Assembly: GCF_000353285.1 (NCBI RefSeq)
Contig: NZ_KB731324.1
Location: forward strand, 4,482,577-4,546,576
Length of the DNA stretch: 64,000 bases
Direction: 5' to 3'
Source: Leptolyngbya boryana PCC 6306
GTDB lineage: Bacteria; Cyanobacteriota; Cyanobacteriia; Leptolyngbyales; Leptolyngbyaceae
Shown: piece by piece, positions 2,557-17,821 of the stretch
How the letters are laid out: each line of letters opens with the position of its first letter
Position numbering within the stretch: position 1 is the stretch's first letter
The notes under the pieces: model-generated
Database searches by the model: none
What the model was told of the DNA's origin: nothing
What the model saw: the letters and a program-made list of their open reading frames with translations, nothing else
Translations under genes and position numbers: made by a program

Positions 2557-3243
2557 GTGAATAGCGTCCGTACTGTTTCCGATACTAAGCGATCGTTTTA
2601 TAGTCTTCACACCCGTCCGGTGAATTCGATTTTCCGCCGAGTCGTGGAAGAATTGATGGTCGAAATGCACCTACTGGCTGTGAATACTGATTTTCGTTAC
2701 GACCCGTTTTATGCATTGGGTGTCGTGACAACTTTCGATCGCTTTATGCAAGGGTATCGCCCTGAAGCCGATAAAGAGTCAATTTTTACGGCATTATGCA
2801 AAGCATTAGAGGCAGATCCACAGCAATATCGCACTGATGCTCAGCGATTAATTGCGACAGCCTCCAGTGCAGCTTGGGATTCAATGCTGATTCCAGATAA
2901 GGCGAATGACTATCGAGAGGCGTTACAAGCAGTCGCATCGAATCCAAAATTCAAGTACAGCCGCCTTTTTGCCGTGGGTCTATACACAATTTTGGAAGCG
3001 TCCAGCCCTGATGTGGTCAAAGACACCGCAAAGCTGAACGAGACGTTTAAGCAAATTTGCCAAGCATTGAATATTTCCGAAGAGAAAATTCAGAAAGATT
3101 TGGAACTGTATCGCAGCAATCTTGAGAAAATGAATCAGATGCAAGTTGTGATTGCAGAAGCTTTAGCTGCCGATCGTAAAAAACGAGAAGAGCGTGAGCA
3201 AGCCCAAGCAAAACCGAAAGATGAAGCAACGTCTGAATCATAA
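2557..3243 (+). CDS. thf1: Thylakoid formation protein Thf1/Psb29
   Basis: A 228-residue protein matching the Thf1/Psb29 family along its length: RTVSDTKRSFYSLHTRPVN at the N-terminus, then FDRFMQGY and a mostly helical body. A highly charged Lys/Glu/Gln coiled-coil tail is usual for the family. Known role: FtsH-linked maintenance and repair of photosystem II and thylakoid biogenesis. The start is a GTG at 2557; no in-frame ATG lies upstream close by, and this start places the conserved N-terminus correctly. A rho-independent terminator follows at 3264-3293. Confidence 0.95.
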   Translation: MNSVRTVSDTKRSFYSLHTRPVNSIFRRVVEELMVEMHLLAVNTDFRYDPFYALGVVTTFDRFMQGYRPEADKESIFTALCKALEADPQQYRTDAQRLIATASSAAWDSMLIPDKANDYREALQAVASNPKFKYSRLFAVGLYTILEASSPDVVKDTAKLNETFKQICQALNISEEKIQKDLELYRSNLEKMNQMQVVIAEALAADRKKREEREQAQAKPKDEATSES

Positions 3244-3263
3244 GGCGATCGCAAATGCAGAAT

Positions 3264-3293
3264 GGGGAGAGTAGAAAGCGCTCCCCGTTTTTT
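3264..3293 (+). terminator. Rho-independent terminator after thf1
   Basis: GGGGAG (3264-3269) pairs with CTCCCC (3281-3286) across an 11-nt loop and is followed by six T (3288-3293). It separates thf1 from cynS, so cynS likely has its own promoter in the roughly 70 bp that remain. Confidence 0.8.
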
Positions 3294-3360
3294 GTATCGT
3301 TTGTAACAACGCAGCGGGATCAAACTCGACTACAAGTAGAACGGTATCGAGTTTGATTGC

Positions 3361-3804
3361 ATGATGACTATTCCAGAAATTTCACAGAAACTGTTCGCCG
3401 CGAAAAAAGCAAAAGGATTGAGCTTTGCAGATCTCGAATCTGTGCTTGGACGCGATGAAGTTTGGATCGCAGCGTTGTTTTATCGACAAGCGAGTGCATC
3501 TGAAGAAGAAGCAACCAAATTATTAGAAGCATTAGGCTTAAGCCTGGATCTTGTGCCTGAATTAGTAAGCTCCACGGTGAAAGGATTAGGGCCGATCGTG
3601 CCGACAGATCCTTTGGTCTATCGGTTCTATGAAATCATGCAGGTGTATGGAATGCCGATGAAAGAGGTTATCCATGAGAAATTTGGCGACGGCATCATGA
3701 GCGCGATCGACTTCACGCTTGATATTGAGAAAGTTGAAGATCCAAAAGGCGATCGCGTCCTCGTCACAATGAATGGAAAATTCCTCCCTTATAAGAAGTG
3801 GTAG
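3361..3804 (+). CDS. cynS: Cyanate hydratase (cyanase)
   Basis: Catalyses bicarbonate-dependent breakdown of cyanate to CO2 and ammonia (via carbamate), feeding nitrogen and carbon assimilation. The length (147 aa) fits the family. The catalytic trio is visible: Arg88 and Glu91 in YRFYE and Ser114 in IMSAIDF, offset by 8 from the E. coli Arg96/Glu99/Ser122. The N-terminal helical DNA-binding-like domain and the C-terminal dimer domain are both complete. Translation may begin at the first or second of two adjacent ATGs (3361 or 3364). In many cyanobacteria cynS follows the cynABD cyanate transporter; here it stands alone between thf1 and a CDF transporter. No convincing NtcA box was found upstream. 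Confidence 0.96.
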
Positions 3805-3886
3805 ATTTTTCGGACAATCCTCGGAAACTCATCTACACTAATCACAGTCAGAGATCCCTGACTCTTTGTGTTAGTTGAGAGAGCCG

Positions 3887-4549
3887 ATGCACCCGCACGA
3901 TTGTTCCTGTCCTGTCCACGATCCGCAAACCAAACAGCGTCAACTTCTCACCGCTCTCATTCTGGTGGGAAGTTTCGCTGTTGCGGAATGTACGATCGGG
4001 CTATCAAGTCATAGTCTTGCATTAGTGGCTGAAGCAGGACATTTAGTTTCTGATTGCTTTGCTTTGTTGCTGGCATTGCTCGCCACTCGCATCGCTCAAT
4101 CTCCGATGCAATGGGGCTGGATTGGAGAGAACACCGTTGCGATTAAACCGAGCCGATCGCCTGAAACTTGGGCTGCTTTACTCAATGGCTTGGGACTAGT
4201 TGCCGTCACGATTTGGATTATTTGGGAAGCGATCGAGCGATTTCAAACGGCTACACCAGAGATTTCCAGCATTCCAATGTTACTGACTGCGATCGTGGGA
4301 TTAGTTGTCAACGGAATTAACATTGCAGTGCTACATCAAGGCAGCGAATTCGATTTGAATTTGCGGGCTGCTTTCCTGCATGTGGTCGCAGATGCGTTGG
4401 GAGCAATTGGAGTGATTATCGCAGCGATCGCGGTTGCTGCATTCCATTGGATGTGGGCAGATGGCGCGATTAGTTTAGCGATCGCAGTTTTAATTCTAGG
4501 CTCAACCATTCCACTGATTCGCCAGAGCATTCAAGAGCTACGACGCTAA
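3887..4549 (+). CDS. Cation diffusion facilitator (CDF) family metal transporter, short form
   Basis: A 220-residue membrane protein with about six hydrophobic segments. It has an N-terminal metal-binding-looking tail (HPHDCSCPVHD) and the paired family motifs EAGHLVSD in TM2 and HVVADALGA in TM5, whose His/Asp residues form the transport metal site. It lacks the long C-terminal cytoplasmic domain seen in many CDFs. Likely function is efflux of zinc or a similar divalent cation driven by proton exchange. I chose the ATG at 3887 over a TTG four codons upstream. It ends 4 bp from the convergent Uma2 gene. Confidence 0.85.
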   Translation: MHPHDCSCPVHDPQTKQRQLLTALILVGSFAVAECTIGLSSHSLALVAEAGHLVSDCFALLLALLATRIAQSPMQWGWIGENTVAIKPSRSPETWAALLNGLGLVAVTIWIIWEAIERFQTATPEISSIPMLLTAIVGLVVNGINIAVLHQGSEFDLNLRAAFLHVVADALGAIGVIIAAIAVAAFHWMWADGAISLAIAVLILGSTIPLIRQSIQELRR

Positions 4550-4553
4550 TTTC

Positions 4554-5132
4554 CTAAATCCCTTTTCTCAATTCATTGACAGCAGTCTGCATATCCGTTT
4601 CTGCTATCAAAACGCATCGACTGAGAAGTTGAATATCCAAATCTTCTAACCCTGGAATCAAACTGCTTTGAATCGCTTGATATCCATTGTCAGATAAGCG
4701 ATACAGCTTAAATACACCATCTTCCCAAAACCAGACTTCTAGCACTCCTAGAGCTTGATACTTCAACAATTTAGACTCACTACCAGAAGTGAAAATAATC
4801 TCGATCGCGAGATCTGGAATCGGTTTTCTAGACCCAAAACAATAGCTTTCATCTGCTTCTGCCGCAGCTTCAGGCGGTTTTTTCTGAGTAAAACTTCCTG
4901 TAGGAAGAAACCAGACTCCTTTGTCCAAGCAGTAAAGCCCTAGCAGAAAAGCAATGATTCCCGAAAAAACTTTGTGGTCTTGTCCAGGCATCCGTAATTC
5001 AATGGTTCCTTGATAAAAACTCAACCGTCTTTTCACCTCAGAGAAAAGACGATCCATTTGCTCAAAATCTTGCCAACTTTTGTTATGAAGCAGGATTACA
5101 GAATCCTGAGAATGAGTCTGTGCAGTAGGCAT
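4554..5132 (-). CDS. Uma2 family (DUF820) putative endonuclease
   Basis: A 192-residue member of the Uma2/DUF820 group, which has a PD-(D/E)XK nuclease fold and is hugely expanded in cyanobacteria. The active-site pattern is visible as IPDLAIEIIFTSGSESKLLKYQ (Asp, Glu, Lys) followed by the family hallmark GVLEVWFWED. Function is not established; association with mobile DNA is common. The start ATG is complementary to 5130-5132. A hairpin at 5190-5213 lies just upstream. Confidence 0.85.
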   Translation of the reverse strand: MPTAQTHSQDSVILLHNKSWQDFEQMDRLFSEVKRRLSFYQGTIELRMPGQDHKVFSGIIAFLLGLYCLDKGVWFLPTGSFTQKKPPEAAAEADESYCFGSRKPIPDLAIEIIFTSGSESKLLKYQALGVLEVWFWEDGVFKLYRLSDNGYQAIQSSLIPGLEDLDIQLLSRCVLIAETDMQTAVNELRKGI

Positions 5133-5187
5133 GACTAGAAATTGAATGCTTGGTCTAATTCTAGGTCAATTCAAATCATCCAGCAGC

Positions 5188-5215
5188 AATTAGAGCTTGC
5201 TTGCTAGCTCTAAAT
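5188..5215. other. Hairpin between Uma2 gene and the rnb 3' fragment
   Basis: TTAGAGCT (5190-5197) and AGCTCTAA (5206-5213) are perfect inverted repeats with an 8-nt loop; pairing extends outward with one bulged base. There is no T-run, so it may be a processed 3' end of the leftward TA or rnb transcript or simply a stable leader element for the Uma2 gene. Confidence 0.45.
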
Positions 5216-5238
5216 TGTAGCAATGTAAATGCTCACAA

Positions 5239-5352
5239 TTAGCCTGCAACCTGCTGAGCTTCTTGTGAAGTTACTTCTTGGAATCGGATTTCATCGCGAC
5301 GTGGATCAACTAAGCTCACTTTCAAGCGCAATTGATCACCGGGGCGAATCGA
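5239..5352 (-). repeat. Detached second copy of the rnb 3' end
   Basis: This 114-bp stretch matches 5881-5994, the last 38 codons (including stop) of rnb, with 7 mismatches (about 94% identity). All seven fall at third codon positions and are synonymous, so the encoded 37 residues and TAA stop are identical. It has no upstream coding part and begins 5 bp beyond the stop of the BrnA gene. See the finding on integration at rnb. Confidence 0.93.
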
Positions 5353-5357
5353 GCCGC

Positions 5358-5594
5358 TTATGCCTCTGACTCGGATGATCTACTCACTTGGCGCTGAGCA
5401 ACTTGCATCAATAGCCGTAAAGCATTATTGACATCTTCTTCGGTTGGGAAAGCTTGTGCAACATCAGGAGCTAGGAGAACTAAATTGGTTCCTTTTCGAT
5501 ATCGTTCAATATATTTCCCTCGGACTCCTTCTCCAAGTTGAGAAAAGTCATACTCAGAGCGTAATTCATCTTCCATCTCATTCTCCTTGCTCAT
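5358..5594 (-). CDS. BrnA-type antitoxin of a BrnT/BrnA module
   Basis: A 78-residue acidic protein starting at the ATG complementary to 5592-5594, preceded at good spacing by an AGGAGG ribosome-binding site. Residues such as YDFSQLGEGVRGKYIERY and NLVLLAPDVAQAFPTEEDV match the antitoxins that commonly follow BrnT in cyanobacteria, with a C-terminal ribbon-helix-helix-like dimer/DNA-binding part. Its start overlaps the end of the BrnT frame by 17 bp, the usual coupled arrangement. The toxin upstream is broken, so this is an antitoxin without a working partner. It ends 5 bp before the duplicated rnb 3' fragment. Confidence 0.8.
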   Translation of the reverse strand: MSKENEMEDELRSEYDFSQLGEGVRGKYIERYRKGTNLVLLAPDVAQAFPTEEDVNNALRLLMQVAQRQVSRSSESEA

Positions 5595-5853
5595 AGAACC
5601 TCCTTTCTGAACGAGTGGCTTTTCGGGCGCTGATAATTCGGATTTTTTCGTCTCGGTCAGTATGAGCAACGACTAGCAGTTCTCCATATTGAGACATCCC
5701 AATGATAACGTAGCGACTTTCTCCGATCGAATGATCTGGATCTGGGAAGGTGAAAGACAGCGCATCATCAAATACCGTCGCGGCTACTTCAAAGGGGATG
5801 CCATGTTTTCTATAGTTTGATTCCGCTTTCTCTGGGTTCTACTCAAACTCCAT
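5578..5853 (-). pseudogene. BrnT toxin, inactivated by an in-frame amber codon
   Basis: Read leftward from the ATG at 5853, the frame gives MEFE-stop-NPEKAESNYRKHGIPFEVA, then a normal BrnT core (VFDDALSF, GESRYVIIGMS, IRIISARKATRSERRFYE) ending at TGA 5578-5580. BrnT proteins normally read FEWDP here, so the Trp-Asp pair has become TAG-Asn. The remaining 86 codons are intact, implying recent inactivation. The next in-frame Met is about halfway along the protein, so restart would lose much of the RNase fold. BrnT is a ribonuclease toxin held by BrnA. A sequencing error at one base would also explain the stop. Confidence 0.85.
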
Positions 5854-5880
5854 CGGAATTGCACCCACCGTAACCTTTAA

Positions 5881-5994
5881 TTAACCTGCAACCTGCTGAG
5901 CTTCTTGTGAGGTTACTTCTTGGAATCGGATTTCATCCCGGCGTGGATCAACTAAGCTGACTTTCAAGCGCAACTGATCACCAGGGCGAATCGA
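5881..5994 (-). repeat. In-gene copy of the 114-bp rnb 3'-end repeat
   Basis: Partner of 5239-5352, in direct orientation 642 bp apart. The intervening 528 bp is almost entirely the BrnT/BrnA cassette. Confidence 0.93.
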
Positions 5995-7902
5995 TCGTTG
6001 TTGAAACACCATTGGTAATTCTAAACCTAGCTCTTCTAGCAACACTAATCCTAAGCCTTCATGCTCTCGCAACCAGCGCAGCATCAGAGCATCCCAAACC
6101 TCATCTGAATGTCGGCGGAGATACTCCAAACTCCAGTAGCGATTGGTATGTCGCTCCACAAAGACTGCTTCTTGAACGGCTAAGCCAATATTGATCATCA
6201 ATTCTTTGACTTCTTCTTCAGAGAAGGGCAGTACATCGCCCCGCAAATGCGCCTTGATCTGAAAATGCGCGAGTAAATCGCTATAACGGCGAATGGGAGA
6301 AGTGACTTGTGTATACGTATCTAATCCCAAACTCGCATGACGCGCAGGCGTAATCGTCAATTCGCTCCGAGGCATACAGCGCCGAATCGCACACGATCGC
6401 ACAGGTCCCGCTGGAAGCTGCAATAATTCCTCATCTGAAGGAAGCTCTGGTTGAGGCTGTCCCCGAAACGGTAAGGGCAAACTGTGAGTCTGAGCATAGC
6501 GCGCCGCCACTTCACCCGCCAAAATCATCATTTCAGCGACCAATTGCCGAGACATCGAATCGTCTAGCACCTCGATCGTCACTTCTCCATCATTTTTGAC
6601 TTTGATCGAAGACTCCGGCATGTGAATACTAATCGCGCCTTGAGTCTGCCGCCATGCTGTGCGCTGCTTTGCCCACTTGGCTAATCCTTCGATTTCCGGT
6701 TCGCCCTGCACGTTTAAATGCAGCATTTCATCGACATCATCATAGGTCAGACGATACGTCGATCGAATCGAACTCGCATGAATACTGTAGTCTTCGATCG
6801 CACCCTCTGCGGTCAGGGTCACTGCAAAACTCAACGCACAGCAAATGACACCCGGATTCAAGCTCATCGGACCCGTCGCCAACTCCGACGGAAACATCGG
6901 AATCATGCCCGTTGGCAAATAAATCGTTGTAATCCGCTTGCGCGCATCGAGGTCTAACTCATCCCCCGGCACTACCCACCGAGTCGGGTCAGCAATATGA
7001 ATCCAAATGCGCTCTCGCCCATCAGGTAACACTTCTAGACTTAAACCATCGTCGATCTCTTTTGTGCTTTCATCGTCGATCGTATAAACCTTTAAGTGTG
7101 TCAAATCAAGACGATTGACATCTAAATCTTCAGGTGGGGATTCCAAACGGTGGTGCGCCACTTCCAAAACCTTCTGAGAAAATTGCATCGGAACCTGTGC
7201 GCGCCGTAGAAACAAGTTCTCGTGAGGACTCCAAATTCTCAGGTCAACGAGAAGTTGAAAGGCGGCGGGAGAGGTTTCAGGACGCTTCAGAGCAGACATC
7301 AGTTCGAGTGCGCTAGCCCGATTGGGAGTTTCTTCGCTGACTGCAAATCGCTCTAACGCATCTAAACGAGGTCGATCGCTGGCTTGCCATTCGACCGTTT
7401 CCCCGTCCAAGGCGAATCGGACTCGCTCTAAGAAACTCTGCCATTCGCGTTGGCGTTGAGCTTCCATCTCGATCTGATGCTTTAATTCTGCCACTTGATT
7501 CGCAGAACGTGGCTCATAGCGATCGCCCTTCTGCTTAAAGTAAAGCTTATCTTCTGAAAGTAAGTAGTGAGCAGCGTAACACATCGCTGCACTTTTGTCG
7601 GAAAACAGCAGTATTGCCATTTCCTCAGGGTTAGTGCTGTCTCCGGTTTCGATAAGAATTTCCCAAGCAACCTCTAGGCTTGAAGGGTCGAGATAAGGCT
7701 GCGTCTCTTTGAGAAAACTAGGGATATCCGTCGGTTTAAAACTTTGGTTGGCGACTTCGTAGGTGATTTGTCGCGGGTGAAGCGTATGATTCTGAGAACG
7801 ATCGTCAATTACGATCCAGTGCTTTTTGCCTTCTGGACGCTCGGCAACAGCGAGACGACGCTCACCATTGACGCGAAATTCGACTAAGGTTCCCTTCTCC
7901 AT
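5881..7902 (-). CDS. rnb: RNase II/RNase R family exoribonuclease
   Basis: A 673-residue 3'-5' exoribonuclease for mRNA turnover. The N-terminal region is cyanobacterial and variable. The RNB catalytic domain spans about residues 263-600 with YTIDDESTKEIDDGLSLE (acidic metal ligands around Asp276-Asp285), and LGLDTYTQVTSPIRRYSDLLAH near its end. An S1-like C-terminal segment ends in the 37 residues that are duplicated at 5239-5352. It follows rpmG and rpsR on the same strand, a conserved cyanobacterial order, with a terminator-like hairpin between rpsR and rnb that may reduce read-through. The start ATG is complementary to 7900-7902. Confidence 0.93.
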   Translation of the reverse strand: MEKGTLVEFRVNGERRLAVAERPEGKKHWIVIDDRSQNHTLHPRQITYEVANQSFKPTDIPSFLKETQPYLDPSSLEVAWEILIETGDSTNPEEMAILLFSDKSAAMCYAAHYLLSEDKLYFKQKGDRYEPRSANQVAELKHQIEMEAQRQREWQSFLERVRFALDGETVEWQASDRPRLDALERFAVSEETPNRASALELMSALKRPETSPAAFQLLVDLRIWSPHENLFLRRAQVPMQFSQKVLEVAHHRLESPPEDLDVNRLDLTHLKVYTIDDESTKEIDDGLSLEVLPDGRERIWIHIADPTRWVVPGDELDLDARKRITTIYLPTGMIPMFPSELATGPMSLNPGVICCALSFAVTLTAEGAIEDYSIHASSIRSTYRLTYDDVDEMLHLNVQGEPEIEGLAKWAKQRTAWRQTQGAISIHMPESSIKVKNDGEVTIEVLDDSMSRQLVAEMMILAGEVAARYAQTHSLPLPFRGQPQPELPSDEELLQLPAGPVRSCAIRRCMPRSELTITPARHASLGLDTYTQVTSPIRRYSDLLAHFQIKAHLRGDVLPFSEEEVKELMINIGLAVQEAVFVERHTNRYWSLEYLRRHSDEVWDALMLRWLREHEGLGLVLLEELGLELPMVFQQRSIRPGDQLRLKVSLVDPRRDEIRFQEVTSQEAQQVAG

Positions 7903-7933
7903 TGAAATCTGTGGGGTGTAACTAGGGTGATCA

Positions 7934-7992
7934 CAAAAGATGGGGAAACGGGGAGCAAGAATCGCGGTGGCACTTCTCCCTATCTCCCCATC
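7934..7992 (-). terminator. Terminator or attenuator between rpsR and rnb
   Basis: GATGGGGA (7939-7946) and TCCCCATC (7985-7992) form a strong stem, helped by inner GGGGAG/CTCCC pairing. On the leftward transcript the stem is followed by UCUUUUG. This would partly stop transcription from rpmG-rpsR before rnb. Confidence 0.55.
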
Positions 7993-8009
7993 TCCCTAAA
8001 ACAATTCTT

Positions 8010-8225
8010 TTAGCCTTCTGCGTTGACGAAGGGCAGTAATGCAATCACACGGGCGCGCTTGATCGCAACGGTCAAATCCCGTTGTTGTTTTGCAGTGAGT
8101 CCTGTGATTCGACGGGGCAAGATTTTGCCGCGTTCGGTGATGAATTTGCGCAGGAGATCGACATCTTTGTAATCGATCGGATCACCTGGTTTGATTGGAG
8201 AAATTCGACGACGGAAATAGCTCAT
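8010..8225 (-). CDS. rpsR: 30S ribosomal protein S18
   Basis: A 71-residue basic protein with the S18 signature: [22 protein letters not shown] followed by [18 protein letters not shown]. It binds the 30S platform beside S6. It lies 86 bp downstream of rpmG on the same strand, the usual pairing in cyanobacteria and plastids. Confidence 0.97.
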
Positions 8226-8311
8226 GGAAGTATGTTTGGTAAAAGGTCATTGGGCGGCAGTTATCACTGCGGGCAAAAACTTACCAGCTTTTGCTGACAA
8301 CCGAGATTCGG

Positions 8312-8506
8312 TTATTTGATCTCTTTATGAGCCGTATGCTTGTTGCAGTGCGTACAGAACTTCTTCAGTTCTAAACGAGCTGTGGTGTTACGACGATTCT
8401 TGGAGGTGGTGTATCGAGAAACACCAGGAGAACGCTTTGCCGGATTCGTCCGACATTCGGTACATTCCAGCGTAATGATTAGTCTTACGCCTTTATTCTT
8501 TGCCAT
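8312..8506 (-). CDS. rpmG: 50S ribosomal protein L33 (four-cysteine, zinc-binding form)
   Basis: A 64-residue protein from the ATG at 8506 ([18 protein letters not shown]). Two CxxC pairs (CTEC and CTHC) mark the zinc-ribbon type of L33. In-frame codons upstream of this Met do not look like L33 and are taken as leader. First gene of the rpmG-rpsR-rnb group. Confidence 0.97.
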
Positions 8507-8682
8507 GATTTTTGCACTGACGAGAACGATAAATGTGTCAAGACACGAAGATCTATTATTCCACATCTACAGGGGTTTGGACGGAAAAATTTGGGATTTC
8601 AATTCTGGAATCGAGTTACGAAAAGTGCGATCGTAATTTCTGAGGAGATTTTAAGATGGCAATATTAGTTTTGCTTGATTGA

Positions 8683-9135
8683 ATGACAAGAATCTATCTG
8701 GATACAAGTGCCTACAATCGCCCTTTCGATGATCAAACTCAACCGAAAATTTTCCTTGAACTTCAAGCAGTCGTAATCATTCTACAAATGGTTGAAGCTG
8801 GAATCGTTGAGTTAGTTACATCCTCTGTGTTGGAGTATGAAAATCGCCGAAATTCAGATCTGCTCCGGCAAGAAGCGATGACTCGATATCTTCAGCTTGC
8901 TGAAATCCGACAAGAAGTGAATGAGGCAATCCAGCAGCGAGCAGAACAACTAGGACATAATGGAGTGAAAGCGATCGATGCACTTCATGTGGCAGGTGCT
9001 GAGACGGCAAATAGCGATTATTTCATTACTTGCGATAAGCGATTGATTAATCGTTGCCAAGCTCTGACGATGAGAGTTGTCAACCCAGCGGATTTTGTAT
9101 TGGAGATGAGCAGCAATGATTCAAGTGAAGAATGA
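8683..9135 (+). CDS. PIN-domain protein (VapC-like ribonuclease)
   Basis: A 150-residue PIN domain. It opens with IYLDTSAYNRPFDD (first catalytic Asp), has a central acidic helix, and ends with KAIDALHVA and ITCDKRLINR (further conserved Asp residues). PIN toxins are Mg-dependent RNases. Unusually for VapBC, the small partner gene lies downstream and overlaps by 20 bp. This toxin-first pair is common in cyanobacteria and its role as a true toxin is unproven. Confidence 0.82.
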   Translation: MTRIYLDTSAYNRPFDDQTQPKIFLELQAVVIILQMVEAGIVELVTSSVLEYENRRNSDLLRQEAMTRYLQLAEIRQEVNEAIQQRAEQLGHNGVKAIDALHVAGAETANSDYFITCDKRLINRCQALTMRVVNPADFVLEMSSNDSSEE

Positions 9136-9331
9136 ACAACAAGTTCTTCAGCAGGGGTTACAGATCCTCTTAGCGAATATGGAACCCTCAGAAGTCGCGA
9201 AGTTCTGGGCAGCTTGCCATCTGGGAAATGGTGATTATCTTAAGACGAAAGATGTGCTTTTTGATCAGGAATCTGTTGCGAGTCTATATGGAAAAGTTCT
9301 GGATTTTCAAGAATCGAACCGCAAAAAATGA
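9116..9331 (+). CDS. Small partner of the PIN protein, putative antitoxin
   Basis: A 71-residue protein that overlaps the PIN gene by 20 bp, so the two are translationally coupled. It is not a recognised DNA-binding fold by eye; it has a helical N-terminus (QVLQQGLQILLANM) and ends in a basic tail. The genetic coupling suggests it is the cognate antitoxin or co-factor, which is inference. A bidirectional terminator follows at 9360. Confidence 0.65.
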   Translation: MIQVKNEQQVLQQGLQILLANMEPSEVAKFWAACHLGNGDYLKTKDVLFDQESVASLYGKVLDFQESNRKK

Positions 9332-14908: not shown

Positions 14909-17821
14909 TCATTTCGCAGTTCGCTCTGCTTCCCAACGTTCTTCTAAATGCTGTTCACATTGGCTCTGCTCGGTTCTCTGCTTGGGGTCGTCGAGGATGT
15001 AGGGTTTGAGGCGTTGGCAGGCGCGTCGCAGAAGAGAATCGAGGTTGAGATCAACGCGGTAGATGTTGACGATCGATGGTTGGGAATCGGGGAGTGGTGC
15101 GCCGAAATAAGAGGGATTTTGGACGATCGCGATCGTTTGCCAATCTGGACTGAATGCGGGCGATCCTCCCTCAAACTGTCCGACTTGATTGCCGTCTTTG
15201 TCCCAGAGCTTGGTGCTGTCATCGTTCCCGATTGTGGCAATCCGCATTCCATCTGGGCTGAACGCTACACTCCTAACGCTGCCCTGATTGCTGTTGATTG
15301 TAGTAATCAGTTTGCCGTCTTTGTCCCACAGTTTGACGCTGCTATCGTTCCCGACTGTGGCAATCCGCGTTCCATCTGGGCTGAACGACACACTCCACAC
15401 TCTACCTTGATTGCTGTTGATCGTAGTAATCAGTTTGCCGTCTTTGTCCCACAGTTTGGTGTTGCCATCGTTTCCGACTGTGGCAATCCGCGTTCCATCC
15501 GGGCTGAACGCTACACTCCTAACGCTGCCCTGATTGCTGTTGATCGTAGTAATCAGTTTGCCGTCTTTGTCCCACAGTTTGACGCTGCCATCGTTCCCGA
15601 CTATGGCAATCCGTGTTCCATCGGGGCTGAGCGCCATACTCCTAACGCCGCTTTGATTGCTGTTGATCGTAGTAATCAGTTTGCCGTCTTTGTCCCAGAG
15701 TGTAGTACTGCCATCGTTCCCGATTATGGCAATCCGTGTTCCATCCGGGCTGAACGACACACTCTCAACGCCGCCTTGATTGCTGTTGATTGTAGTAATC
15801 GGTTTGCCGTCTTTGTCCCACAGTTTGATGCTGCCAGCATCTCCGCCGATGGCAATCCGCGTTCCATCGGGACTGAACGACACACTCCCAATGCTGCCTT
15901 GATGGCTGTTGATCGTAGTAATCAACTTGCCGTCTTTGTCCCACAGTTTGATGCTGCCAGCATCTCCGCCGATGGCAATCCGCGTTCCATCAGGACTGAA
16001 CGACACACTCCCAATGCTGCCTTGATGGCTGTTGATCGTAGTAATCGGTTTGCCGTCTTTGTCCCACAGTTTGGTGCTGCCAGCATCTCCACCGATGGCA
16101 ATCCGCGTTCCCTCGGGACTGAACGCCACACTCCAAACGCTGCCCTGATGGCTGTTGATCGTAGTAATCAACTTGCCGTCTTTGTCCCACAGTTTGACGC
16201 TGCCAGCGTCTCCGCCTGTGGCAATCCGTGTTCCATCCGGGCTGAACGCTACACTTCTAACGCTGCCCTGATTGCCGTTGATTGTAGTAATCAACTTGCC
16301 GTCTTTGCTCCACAGTTTGATGCTGCCAGCGTCTCCGCCTGTGGCAATCCGTGTTCCATCCGGGCTGAACGCTACACTTCTAACGCTGCCCTGATTGCCG
16401 TTGATTGTAGTAATCAACTTGCCGTCTTTGTTCCACAGTTTGATGCTGCCAGCGTCTCCGCCCGCGGCAATCCGTGTTCCATCCGGGCTGAACGCTACAC
16501 TTCTAACGCTGCCTTGATTGCCGTTGATTGTAGTAATCAACTTGCCGTCTTTGTTCCACAGTTTGATGCTGCCAGCGTCTCCGCCTGTGGCAATCCGCGC
16601 TCCATCGGGACTGAATGCCACACTCAAAACGCTGCCCTGATTGCTGTTGATTGTAGTAATCAACTTGCCGTCTTTGTCCCCCAGTTTGGTGCTGCCATCG
16701 TTCCCGCCTGCGGCAATCCGCGTTCCATCGGAACTGAACGCTACACTCCAAACGATGTCTTGATTACTGTTGATCGTAGTAATCGGTTTGCCGTCTTTGT
16801 CCCACAGCTTGATGCTGCCATCGTTCCCACCTGTGGCAATCCGCGTTCCATCGGGACTGAACGACACACTCCTAACGATGCCTTGATTGCTTGGAATCTT
16901 TGTTTCTCGAATCTTTTCTAAACCAGATTGAAGTACTAAGAACGGGGAAATCGCAGGATACTGATCCAGTGATTTCCCCGCCGTCCACTTTCGCAATTCA
17001 AAGCCTGCCTGCATCGCCAGCCGCAATCCATCCGCTTGATCCGTATCAAATCGCCTCAGCGCCAAAGCTCCCACTCGTTCAATCCGAGTTCCCGCTTTTG
17101 CTTCCTCTGTTGTTCTCCATGCCAAGCCTGCCGCGATCGCTGATCCCACCAGCGTCAGTGCCAACACTCCAGACCCAATCTGCACTAATCGCTTTGCCCG
17201 TTGTCCCGCCTGAAGCAAAATCGTCGCGGCTTCCTCACTTGCATGACTAGCGCTGATGTATTCCCGCTGAAGTTCCGTTGGCTTCGGTTCTTCTTGTTCT
17301 GCTGCCGTCAGCCAAGTTTGCGCCCGTTGCAAATCATCGCCCCGCAGCACAAAACTCGGATTACGTCCCTCACGCTCCCATTCGATCGCTCGTTGCAAAA
17401 TCCGCGTATGCGATCGCACATGCTCCAAATCCGTCTCGATCGCACGAATCAATTCTGCAAACGTCACCTCAAACGGGTCTTGCTCCCGCAAAAACAGCCA
17501 ATTTAACTTCCCCAGTGCCGGATGCACCTGAGCAACATTCTCCACATCACGACAAACCAAAGGAACCAAGCGTTTGTTATGCTTCACCGCGTGGTCGATC
17601 TCGTCACGACAAATTTCTGATGTGACCGAATCCGGTGAGATCACAAACACAAACGTATTTGTCCCTTCGATGCCTCGCTCGATCGCGCTCCACCATTCCT
17701 CAGTTTTTTCGATCGAATCCCAATCGACCCAAGTTTCCTGATTCTGCGATCGCAGCGCATCATACAATTTTTGAACAAACGATTTATCTTTCCGGGAGTA
17801 AGAGATAAAAACATCACTCAT
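14909..17821 (-). CDS. TIR domain - transmembrane - 14x WD40 repeat protein
   Basis: A 970-residue protein. Residues 1-130 are a TIR domain (DVFISYSRKDKSFVQ, WVDWDSIEKTEEWWSAIERGI, FVFVISPDSVTSEIC), including Glu residues in the region where NAD-cleaving TIRs keep their catalytic Glu. A helical linker (about 130-210) leads to one hydrophobic segment (IGSGVLALTLVGSAIAAGLAW, near 214-235). Residues 311-884 are exactly fourteen 41-residue WD40 blades, enough for two seven-bladed propellers; residues 885-970 are a charged tail ending in a Glu/Arg-rich helix. No NB-ARC or other NTPase domain is present. The TIR would face the cytosol. A defence or stress sensor is a guess from architecture. Confidence 0.9.
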   Translation of the reverse strand: MSDVFISYSRKDKSFVQKLYDALRSQNQETWVDWDSIEKTEEWWSAIERGIEGTNTFVFVISPDSVTSEICRDEIDHAVKHNKRLVPLVCRDVENVAQVHPALGKLNWLFLREQDPFEVTFAELIRAIETDLEHVRSHTRILQRAIEWEREGRNPSFVLRGDDLQRAQTWLTAAEQEEPKPTELQREYISASHASEEAATILLQAGQRAKRLVQIGSGVLALTLVGSAIAAGLAWRTTEEAKAGTRIERVGALALRRFDTDQADGLRLAMQAGFELRKWTAGKSLDQYPAISPFLVLQSGLEKIRETKIPSNQGIVRSVSFSPDGTRIATGGNDGSIKLWDKDGKPITTINSNQDIVWSVAFSSDGTRIAAGGNDGSTKLGDKDGKLITTINSNQGSVLSVAFSPDGARIATGGDAGSIKLWNKDGKLITTINGNQGSVRSVAFSPDGTRIAAGGDAGSIKLWNKDGKLITTINGNQGSVRSVAFSPDGTRIATGGDAGSIKLWSKDGKLITTINGNQGSVRSVAFSPDGTRIATGGDAGSVKLWDKDGKLITTINSHQGSVWSVAFSPEGTRIAIGGDAGSTKLWDKDGKPITTINSHQGSIGSVSFSPDGTRIAIGGDAGSIKLWDKDGKLITTINSHQGSIGSVSFSPDGTRIAIGGDAGSIKLWDKDGKPITTINSNQGGVESVSFSPDGTRIAIIGNDGSTTLWDKDGKLITTINSNQSGVRSMALSPDGTRIAIVGNDGSVKLWDKDGKLITTINSNQGSVRSVAFSPDGTRIATVGNDGNTKLWDKDGKLITTINSNQGRVWSVSFSPDGTRIATVGNDSSVKLWDKDGKLITTINSNQGSVRSVAFSPDGMRIATIGNDDSTKLWDKDGNQVGQFEGGSPAFSPDWQTIAIVQNPSYFGAPLPDSQPSIVNIYRVDLNLDSLLRRACQRLKPYILDDPKQRTEQSQCEQHLEERWEAERTAK
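15170..16891 (-). repeat. Fourteen tandem 123-bp repeats encoding WD40 blades
   Basis: Fourteen in-phase units of 41 codons, each beginning near (S/G)NQGSVRSVAFSPDG and ending KLITTIN. Units 3-6 and 8-9 are almost identical at the DNA level, showing recent expansion or gene conversion. In unit 2 the blade Trp is replaced by Gly (KLGDKDG). Because every unit keeps the same codons, the opposite strand also stays open for about 650 codons; I treat that as a by-product. Confidence 0.93.

Follow-up and report, generated by a model that had tools for sequence, protein, structure and literature searches.

The window analysed here is a 64,000-nucleotide stretch (G000:C1:4482577-4546576) of a 7.26-Mb genome. 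The genome belongs to a cyanobacterium, as a thylakoid-formation protein indicates, and probably to a Leptolyngbya. The rnb gene of the window (5881..7902, minus strand) encodes a complete exoribonuclease of the RNase II/R family, 673 aa in length, with an RNB domain (PF00773, E 7e-80). The 3' end of this gene is present twice: the last 37 codons and the stop codon inside the functional gene (5881..5994, minus strand; hereafter copy 2) recur downstream as an orphan second rnb end (5239..5352, minus strand; copy 1), which we read as the displaced native tail. The direct repeat as a whole (5237-5352 and 5879-5994) comprises 116 nt at 94% identity and is the longest direct repeat within positions 3000-9000. 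Its homology ends sharply, at the 38th codon from the gene end on one side and 2 nt beyond the stop codon on the other, and the first 11 nt are the same in both copies. The 27-nt spacer between the rnb stop and the brnT start (5854..5880, minus strand) is, past those 2 nt, unlike the sequence that follows copy 1.

The space between the copies is taken up by the frames of a brnT gene (5578..5853, minus strand; 91 codons and a stop) and an antitoxin-like brnA gene (5358..5594, minus strand), an open frame that starts at 5594 or 5576 and stops at 5358. A right-hand junction of 5 nt (5353..5357, minus strand) leads from the brnA stop to copy 1; a source for this filler was looked for among the sequences examined and none was found. 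The initial annotation was thus right that almost exactly one BrnT/BrnA cassette lies between the copies, since the flanks amount to only 27 nt and 5 nt. On the 3' side of copy 1 follow a Uma2-family gene (PF05685; 4554..5132, minus strand), which has no DNA match in the 1.5 kb 3' of rnb in seven relatives from the genus, and a thylakoid-formation gene, a cyanase gene and a cation-efflux gene (2557..4549, plus strand).

The cassette agrees with the BrnT/BrnA type II toxin-antitoxin systems in the Pfam match of its BrnT (PF04365, E 6.8e-27, when the frame is read with X at the stop) and in the order of brnT and brnA in the same direction. It differs from them in an in-frame TAG in brnT and in a BrnA that is recognised by neither Pfam nor NCBIfam (no match at E 0.01), so that brnA is named for its position and its likeness to the open reading frame that follows brnT elsewhere. 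The TAG is codon 5 (5839-5841), the next in-frame ATG is codon 52 (counted from 0), and position 5 is a tryptophan in all seven aligned homologues (of 30 family loci fetched). The toxin of the window is therefore probably inactive, a defect that the initial annotation had overlooked. A cassette with brnT stopped at codon 5 should no longer be addictive, and crossing-over from one repeat to the other could delete it. The C-terminus of BrnA after AQRQ is unlike that of the homologues compared, at the point where an attC site would begin. A second BrnT, more distant (51%) and without a stop, is encoded elsewhere in the genome. Comparison with plasmid and phage collections gave no DNA match in either, and a plasmid or phage carrier was rejected on these grounds.

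Synonymous divergence between two rnb tails

The coding part of the repeat (5239-5352 and 5881-5994) spans 114 nt, 37 sense codons and the stop codon, and is identical at 107 of them. The seven differences lie in codons 3, 6, 11, 17, 18, 27 and 36 (counted from 0), all at third positions and all synonymous, which bears out what had been claimed for the two tails from a first reading of the DNA. The same reading had argued from this pattern against a dead duplicate drifting after its formation, and the argument survives a simulation of duplication in situ in which copy 1 evolved freely and selection acted on copy 2 alone (omega 0.05, kappa 3; 20,000 runs): the complete lack of nonsynonymous codons among seven differences arose in 0.17% of the runs (P = 0.0017).

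The two tails were compared with the sister species (G004). At the seven differing sites, copy 1 has the sister's base five times, copy 2 once and neither copy once. Copy 2, which holds most of the derived synonymous states, also receives nearly all change in the tail under maximum likelihood (end branches 0 and 0.07). The concentration of change on the copy inside the gene is the opposite of what a decaying spare copy predicts. The initial annotation had also proposed to determine which species' rnb each copy groups with. The two copies pair together, being mutual nearest among the available sequences (seven differences, versus 11 and 15 to the sister), a result that goes part of the way towards contradicting an imported tail; support for the pairing is weak (80/58), and a tree that places copy 1 beside the sister is not rejected (p-AU 0.318). 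No mosaic break is visible along rnb in comparison with the sister, the last scanning window having 15 differences against a mean of 14.4. Taken alone, the rnb sequences suggest that selection was acting on either copy until a recent time, and they do not indicate where the copies came from.

Gene order behind rnb in related genomes

Among the 58 genomes, 55 have an rnb gene of nearly full length, one (G041) has it in two pieces, and two (G010 and G035) gave partial or paralogous matches only. The second rnb tail occurs in just one of the 58, namely the genome of the window. All seven genus relatives have a single tail (E <= 0.001) and no BrnT/BrnA genes beside rnb, and among the BrnT matches in the genus at E <= 1e-20 none adjoins rnb except the window's own. 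A search for rnb next to BrnT/BrnA elsewhere, as the initial annotation had proposed, found none: the rnb protein had no match in 109 other BrnT loci, and no genome was found with rnb followed by BrnT/BrnA and a single tail.

The comparison of empty sites that the initial annotation called for gave the predicted outcome in so far as all seven relatives have one tail and no cassette. It is a weak test at rnb because none of the seven shares the genes 3' of rnb with the window, and an exact empty site was not seen there. The end of rnb is a variable site. One downstream gene is common to G001 and G003, and a small gene pair is common to G006 and G007. In five of the seven relatives, two conserved genes, which we take to be a LON-like gene and rpsJ, lie further on from rnb, with a variable insert or almost nothing in between; neither of the two is near rnb in the window genome or in the sister species, where they are located elsewhere. 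The cyanase and cation-efflux genes are adjacent to each other in all seven relatives, away from rnb, and are preceded by the thylakoid gene in the five loci displayed. The joining of rnb, the Uma2-family gene and the cation-efflux gene is thus special to the window genome among the eight. The pair common to G006 and G007 stands directly after rnb (L058 and L055, respectively) and is different from BrnT/BrnA, presumably DUF2442/DUF4160-like.

Two-gene cassettes between repeated gene ends

One parallel is found in G003 (L079), in the order phosphoribosyltransferase gene, brnT, brnA and a second phosphoribosyltransferase tail of 60 codons and a stop. Here brnT lies 14 nt behind the host gene (PF00156), the far tail lies 26 nt after brnA, and the BrnT is 77% identical to that of the window. 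The two tails differ at 22 of 183 sites (19 synonymous and three nonsynonymous codons), and in a simulation of duplication in situ none of 5000 runs gave three or fewer nonsynonymous codons. Over 159 comparable nucleotides the tails differ from each other at 17, each of them from five other species at 17-20, and from the species of the window and its sister at 28-38. Copies that stand at the distance of separate species and differ mostly at synonymous sites look as if they had diverged before they met; nevertheless, a tree joining both tails is not rejected (p-AU 0.488; the tree is star-like). Those five species (G001, G002, G005, G006 and G007) have one such tail and no BrnT/BrnA beside the gene. 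A conserved neighbour follows 4 nt after the stop codon in G001, 669-889 nt on in G005-G007 and 615 nt beyond the far tail in G003; it was not found nearby in G002.

A different cargo is found at nadC. In G001 (L056), nadC (with QRPTase domains) is followed by a nucleotidyltransferase gene, a HepT gene, a second nadC tail and a further gene; we take the nucleotidyltransferase to be MntA-like and the further gene to be Uma2-like. The second tail is 95% identical over 102 nt, with five of 99 sites differing and with two synonymous and two nonsynonymous codons compared, a composition that fits target duplication in place as well. G007 and G005 represent empty sites, in which nadC directly joins the same downstream gene as in G001. 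G003 has the same join of nadC, nucleotidyltransferase and HepT but retains no more than some 20 nt of the far tail; as these are the start of the same tail, G001 and G003 share one insertion, and G003 was rejected as a clean donor of the cassette. In the fourth case, two copies of the end of a cation-efflux gene in G001 enclose a small gene together with one for an HNH endonuclease (L062:6794-7668), possibly a two-gene cassette. An exact empty site was seen only at the phosphoribosyltransferase and nadC loci.

The four cases (rnb, L079, L056 and L062) are alike in their joints. The cassette starts between -4 and +27 nt from the stop codon of the host gene, and the far tail starts between -5 and +26 nt from the last cassette stop. 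Right-hand joints this close to the cassette stop would not be expected if ends had been joined at random.

Other BrnT/BrnA loci in cyanobacteria end in attC-like sites, which were identified after brnA in six of the 67 loci in which brnA was located (87 tried), against 0.3 expected in shuffles. The examples are L219 (Nostoc sp. WHI), L226, L183, L184 and L186 (R and L boxes paired), with L216 doubtful. Cassettes of this family have probably also moved as integron cassettes.

We further surveyed loci for direct repeats of at least 60 nt and at least 79% identity, spaced 450-1400 nt apart and straddling an anchor gene. The loci were the best matches per genome, a subset of all matches; the BrnT family set (n = 30) consisted of the window locus and the best loci of the 28 genomes with matches among 42. 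Straddling repeats were found at 8/30 BrnT family loci, 6/80 named BrnT loci, 9/30 XisH loci and 1/25 HepT loci, compared with 0/30 response-regulator loci and 0/121 tiles, each 3.3 kb long and together drawn from 400 kb of the window chromosome, as controls. The BrnT, XisH and HepT sets include the locus that prompted each of them, and without it the counts are 7/29, 8/29 and 0/24. As its sole case is the prompting locus itself (P 0.14), the HepT set was rejected as an enriched one. A looser rule gave 8/30, 7/80, 10/30 and 1/25, respectively, with 0/30 and 3/121 in the controls, and the first version of the rule gave 7/30 for BrnT, 10/30 for XisH and 2/25 for HepT. No straddling pair was found at 29 rnb loci (143.6 kb). 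Seventeen other stretches (about 260 kb, mostly from relatives) yielded five pairs, the window's own and four in G001 and G003, three of which flank a gene pair; the background in relatives is accordingly not zero. The fourth (L059:2468-3034) is a gene end, presumably of tuf, repeated 468 nt downstream with no evident cargo in between.

Several of the surveyed repeats were rejected as target copies. In L199 and L206 it is the start of brnA that occurs twice. The repeats in L210 and L176 are of a palindromic, dispersed kind, dispersed repeats are also present in L158 and L156, and L213 seems to be the sequence of L083 again. All were kept in the counts given above; leaving out L199, L206, L210 and L213 lowers the named BrnT set from six to 2/80, and leaving out L176, L158 and L156 lowers the XisH set from nine to 6/30. 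Other coding repeats have mixed synonymous and nonsynonymous differences, namely four and six in L106, nine and six in L228, five and five in L083 (at a gene start) and four and one in L156. Straddling repeats are thus of more than one kind, and the purely or nearly purely synonymous class consists of rnb and the phosphoribosyltransferase. XisH/XisI pairs often lie between direct repeats of 60-170 nt (L063:1426-2409, L153, L156, L157, L159, L165, L171 and L180). A HicB/HicA pair lies between 83-nt direct repeats, 95% identical and 648 nt apart, in L100:709-1439.

Origin of the cassette and its flanking repeat

The explanation that we favour, as a probable one with considerable room for error, is that the BrnT/BrnA cassette was imported from a related strain together with a diverged rnb tail, by recombination that displaced the native tail. 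It draws on the synonymous pattern, the displaced tail and the relatives that have neither cassette nor second tail. In the donor strain, BrnT/BrnA would have lain directly behind rnb and would have been taken up along with the 3' end of the donor's rnb. Recombination, within the tail or ahead of it, would then have supplied the resident rnb with the incoming tail as its new end (copy 2) and left the gene whole, while the far end of the cassette would have become attached to the resident tail, at its start or close to it, leaving this tail as the orphan copy 1. We infer both this direction, with copy 1 native and copy 2 imported, and the existence of a donor. The route may have been homology-facilitated illegitimate recombination of DNA taken up by the cell, or a single crossover of a small circle consisting of tail and cassette. 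An imported tail had already been proposed in the initial annotation. The simulation, the sister's bases in copy 1, the seven relatives and the parallels at the phosphoribosyltransferase and nadC genes speak for the proposal, whereas no donor was found and the rnb copies are each other's nearest relatives. Further points that weigh against import are that the pairing of the two phosphoribosyltransferase tails is not rejected, that the differences at nadC, L106, L228 and L083 are mixed, that rnb has no visible mosaic break, and that the right-hand joints lie nearer the cassette stop than expected for random joining.

The strongest competitor, which we regard as unlikely but worth serious consideration, is insertion in place with a long target duplication, in which about 114 nt of rnb were copied and the copies, identical at first, later drifted. 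The passages cited here from PMC3874152 (see also PMC1643837 and PMC3031569) report target duplications on the scale of 100 bp where restriction-modification systems have inserted, and the layout and size of the rnb repeat match these. Duplication in place would also account for the mutual nearness of the rnb copies, for the nonsynonymous differences in nadC, L106, L228 and L083, as decay gives, and for the enrichment of straddling repeats at BrnT and XisH family loci. It is opposed by the lack of nonsynonymous changes among the seven in rnb and their small number among the 22 in the phosphoribosyltransferase, both rare or never reached in the simulations, by the accumulation of most rnb change on the copy still in the gene, and by the inter-species distance between the phosphoribosyltransferase copies.

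Synonymous-only divergence would arise without any import if the repeat were the remnant of a tandem duplication of the whole rnb gene, with both genes working until the BrnT/BrnA insertion or a deletion left only the end of the second. We consider this improbable: none of the seven genus relatives has a close second rnb, and the same event would have had to happen again at the phosphoribosyltransferase, cation-efflux and nadC genes, with some 30-60 codons left on each occasion. Still less credence is due to an integrase acting in trans at an attachment site within the end of rnb, on an element that brought its own tail. The gene end rebuilt to the stop codon and the 11 identical nucleotides at the start of the copies would suit such an element. 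However, only the brnT and brnA frames lie between the repeats and none of the nine scanned proteins around the site (2557-9331) is one; moreover, related BrnT/BrnA cassettes lie at differing places with no shared site discernible by eye, a second rnb tail is present in one of 58 genomes, and the plasmid and phage collections gave no DNA match. Least credible of all is that BrnT/BrnA entered the rnb end as an integron gene cassette and that the repeat is secondary, since the attC-like sites that end cassettes in other cyanobacteria have no equivalent detected in the window cassette or in L079, and we know of no case in which integron cassette insertion copies 114 nt of its target.

Integrase-bearing elements that insert at gene 3' ends supply a new gene end themselves and move the resident end to the far side. 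The rnb locus departs from them: its repeats enclose no integrase, a site common to the cassettes is not evident, the unit measures 642 nt, and the target genes in the parallel cases vary. In minimal mobile elements, variable cargo behind a conserved gene is moved by homologous recombination in the flank; in the present case, the flank is duplicated. Homology-facilitated illegitimate recombination has been described in naturally competent bacteria, as stated in the passage cited from PMC2884548, with reference to de Vries and Wackernagel (2002) and others. It resembles the import reading in that one side is anchored by homology and the other is joined without it, producing donor tail, cargo and resident tail in this order. 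At rnb such a history is deduced from sequence, and the right-hand joints are unexpectedly near the cassette stop codon.

The likeness to restriction-modification systems deserves separate treatment. Work on their long target duplications by Nobusato et al. (2000) and Furuta et al. (2010) is cited in PMC3874152, PMC1643837 and PMC3031569; in the passages concerned, the term refers to restriction-modification systems in PMC3874152 and PMC3031569 and appears as a reference-list item in PMC2654758. Common to those systems and the present loci are a small addiction-type pair with a direct copy of roughly 100 bp on either side and relatives in which the target is present once. In the genomes analysed here, the cargo is a toxin-antitoxin pair (at other loci XisH/XisI or a pair with HNH), the limit of the repeat is a gene's stop codon, and at two loci the divergence of the copies is wholly or mostly synonymous, as if it predated their meeting. 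As the cargo is BrnT/BrnA and not restriction-modification, the likeness is one of working and not of membership. A literature search for toxin-antitoxin pairs with target duplication and direct repeats in cyanobacteria found none.

As a way in which small toxin-antitoxin pairs of the chromosome could move in the absence of transposases, we put forward, tentatively and as a proposal more doubtful than the import at rnb itself, that many cyanobacterial two-gene cassettes, of addiction type or uncharacterised (BrnT/BrnA, nucleotidyltransferase/HepT, XisH/XisI and HNH pairs), may spread between species without a recombinase of their own, by means of the tail of a host gene. The tail would guide homologous recombination and repair the target, the resident tail would remain as a scar, and the repeats would permit loop-out and re-entry elsewhere. 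If this is true, a carried tail repairs its target while its synonymous sites record the source, so that the route can be read from genomes, and some 'long target duplications' would be imported copies that had already diverged, not copies made at insertion. Since a single genus contains sites of both kinds, empty and occupied, the proposal is directly testable in strain collections.

Two further features of the window lie on the opposite side of rnb or farther along. A PIN-domain gene overlapped by a small gene is located at 8683-9331; that the two form a toxin-antitoxin-like pair is a guess. At positions 15189-16891 a unit of 123 bp is repeated in tandem 13.8 times with 89% matches, an array that we presume to encode a repeat protein, probably of the WD40 kind.
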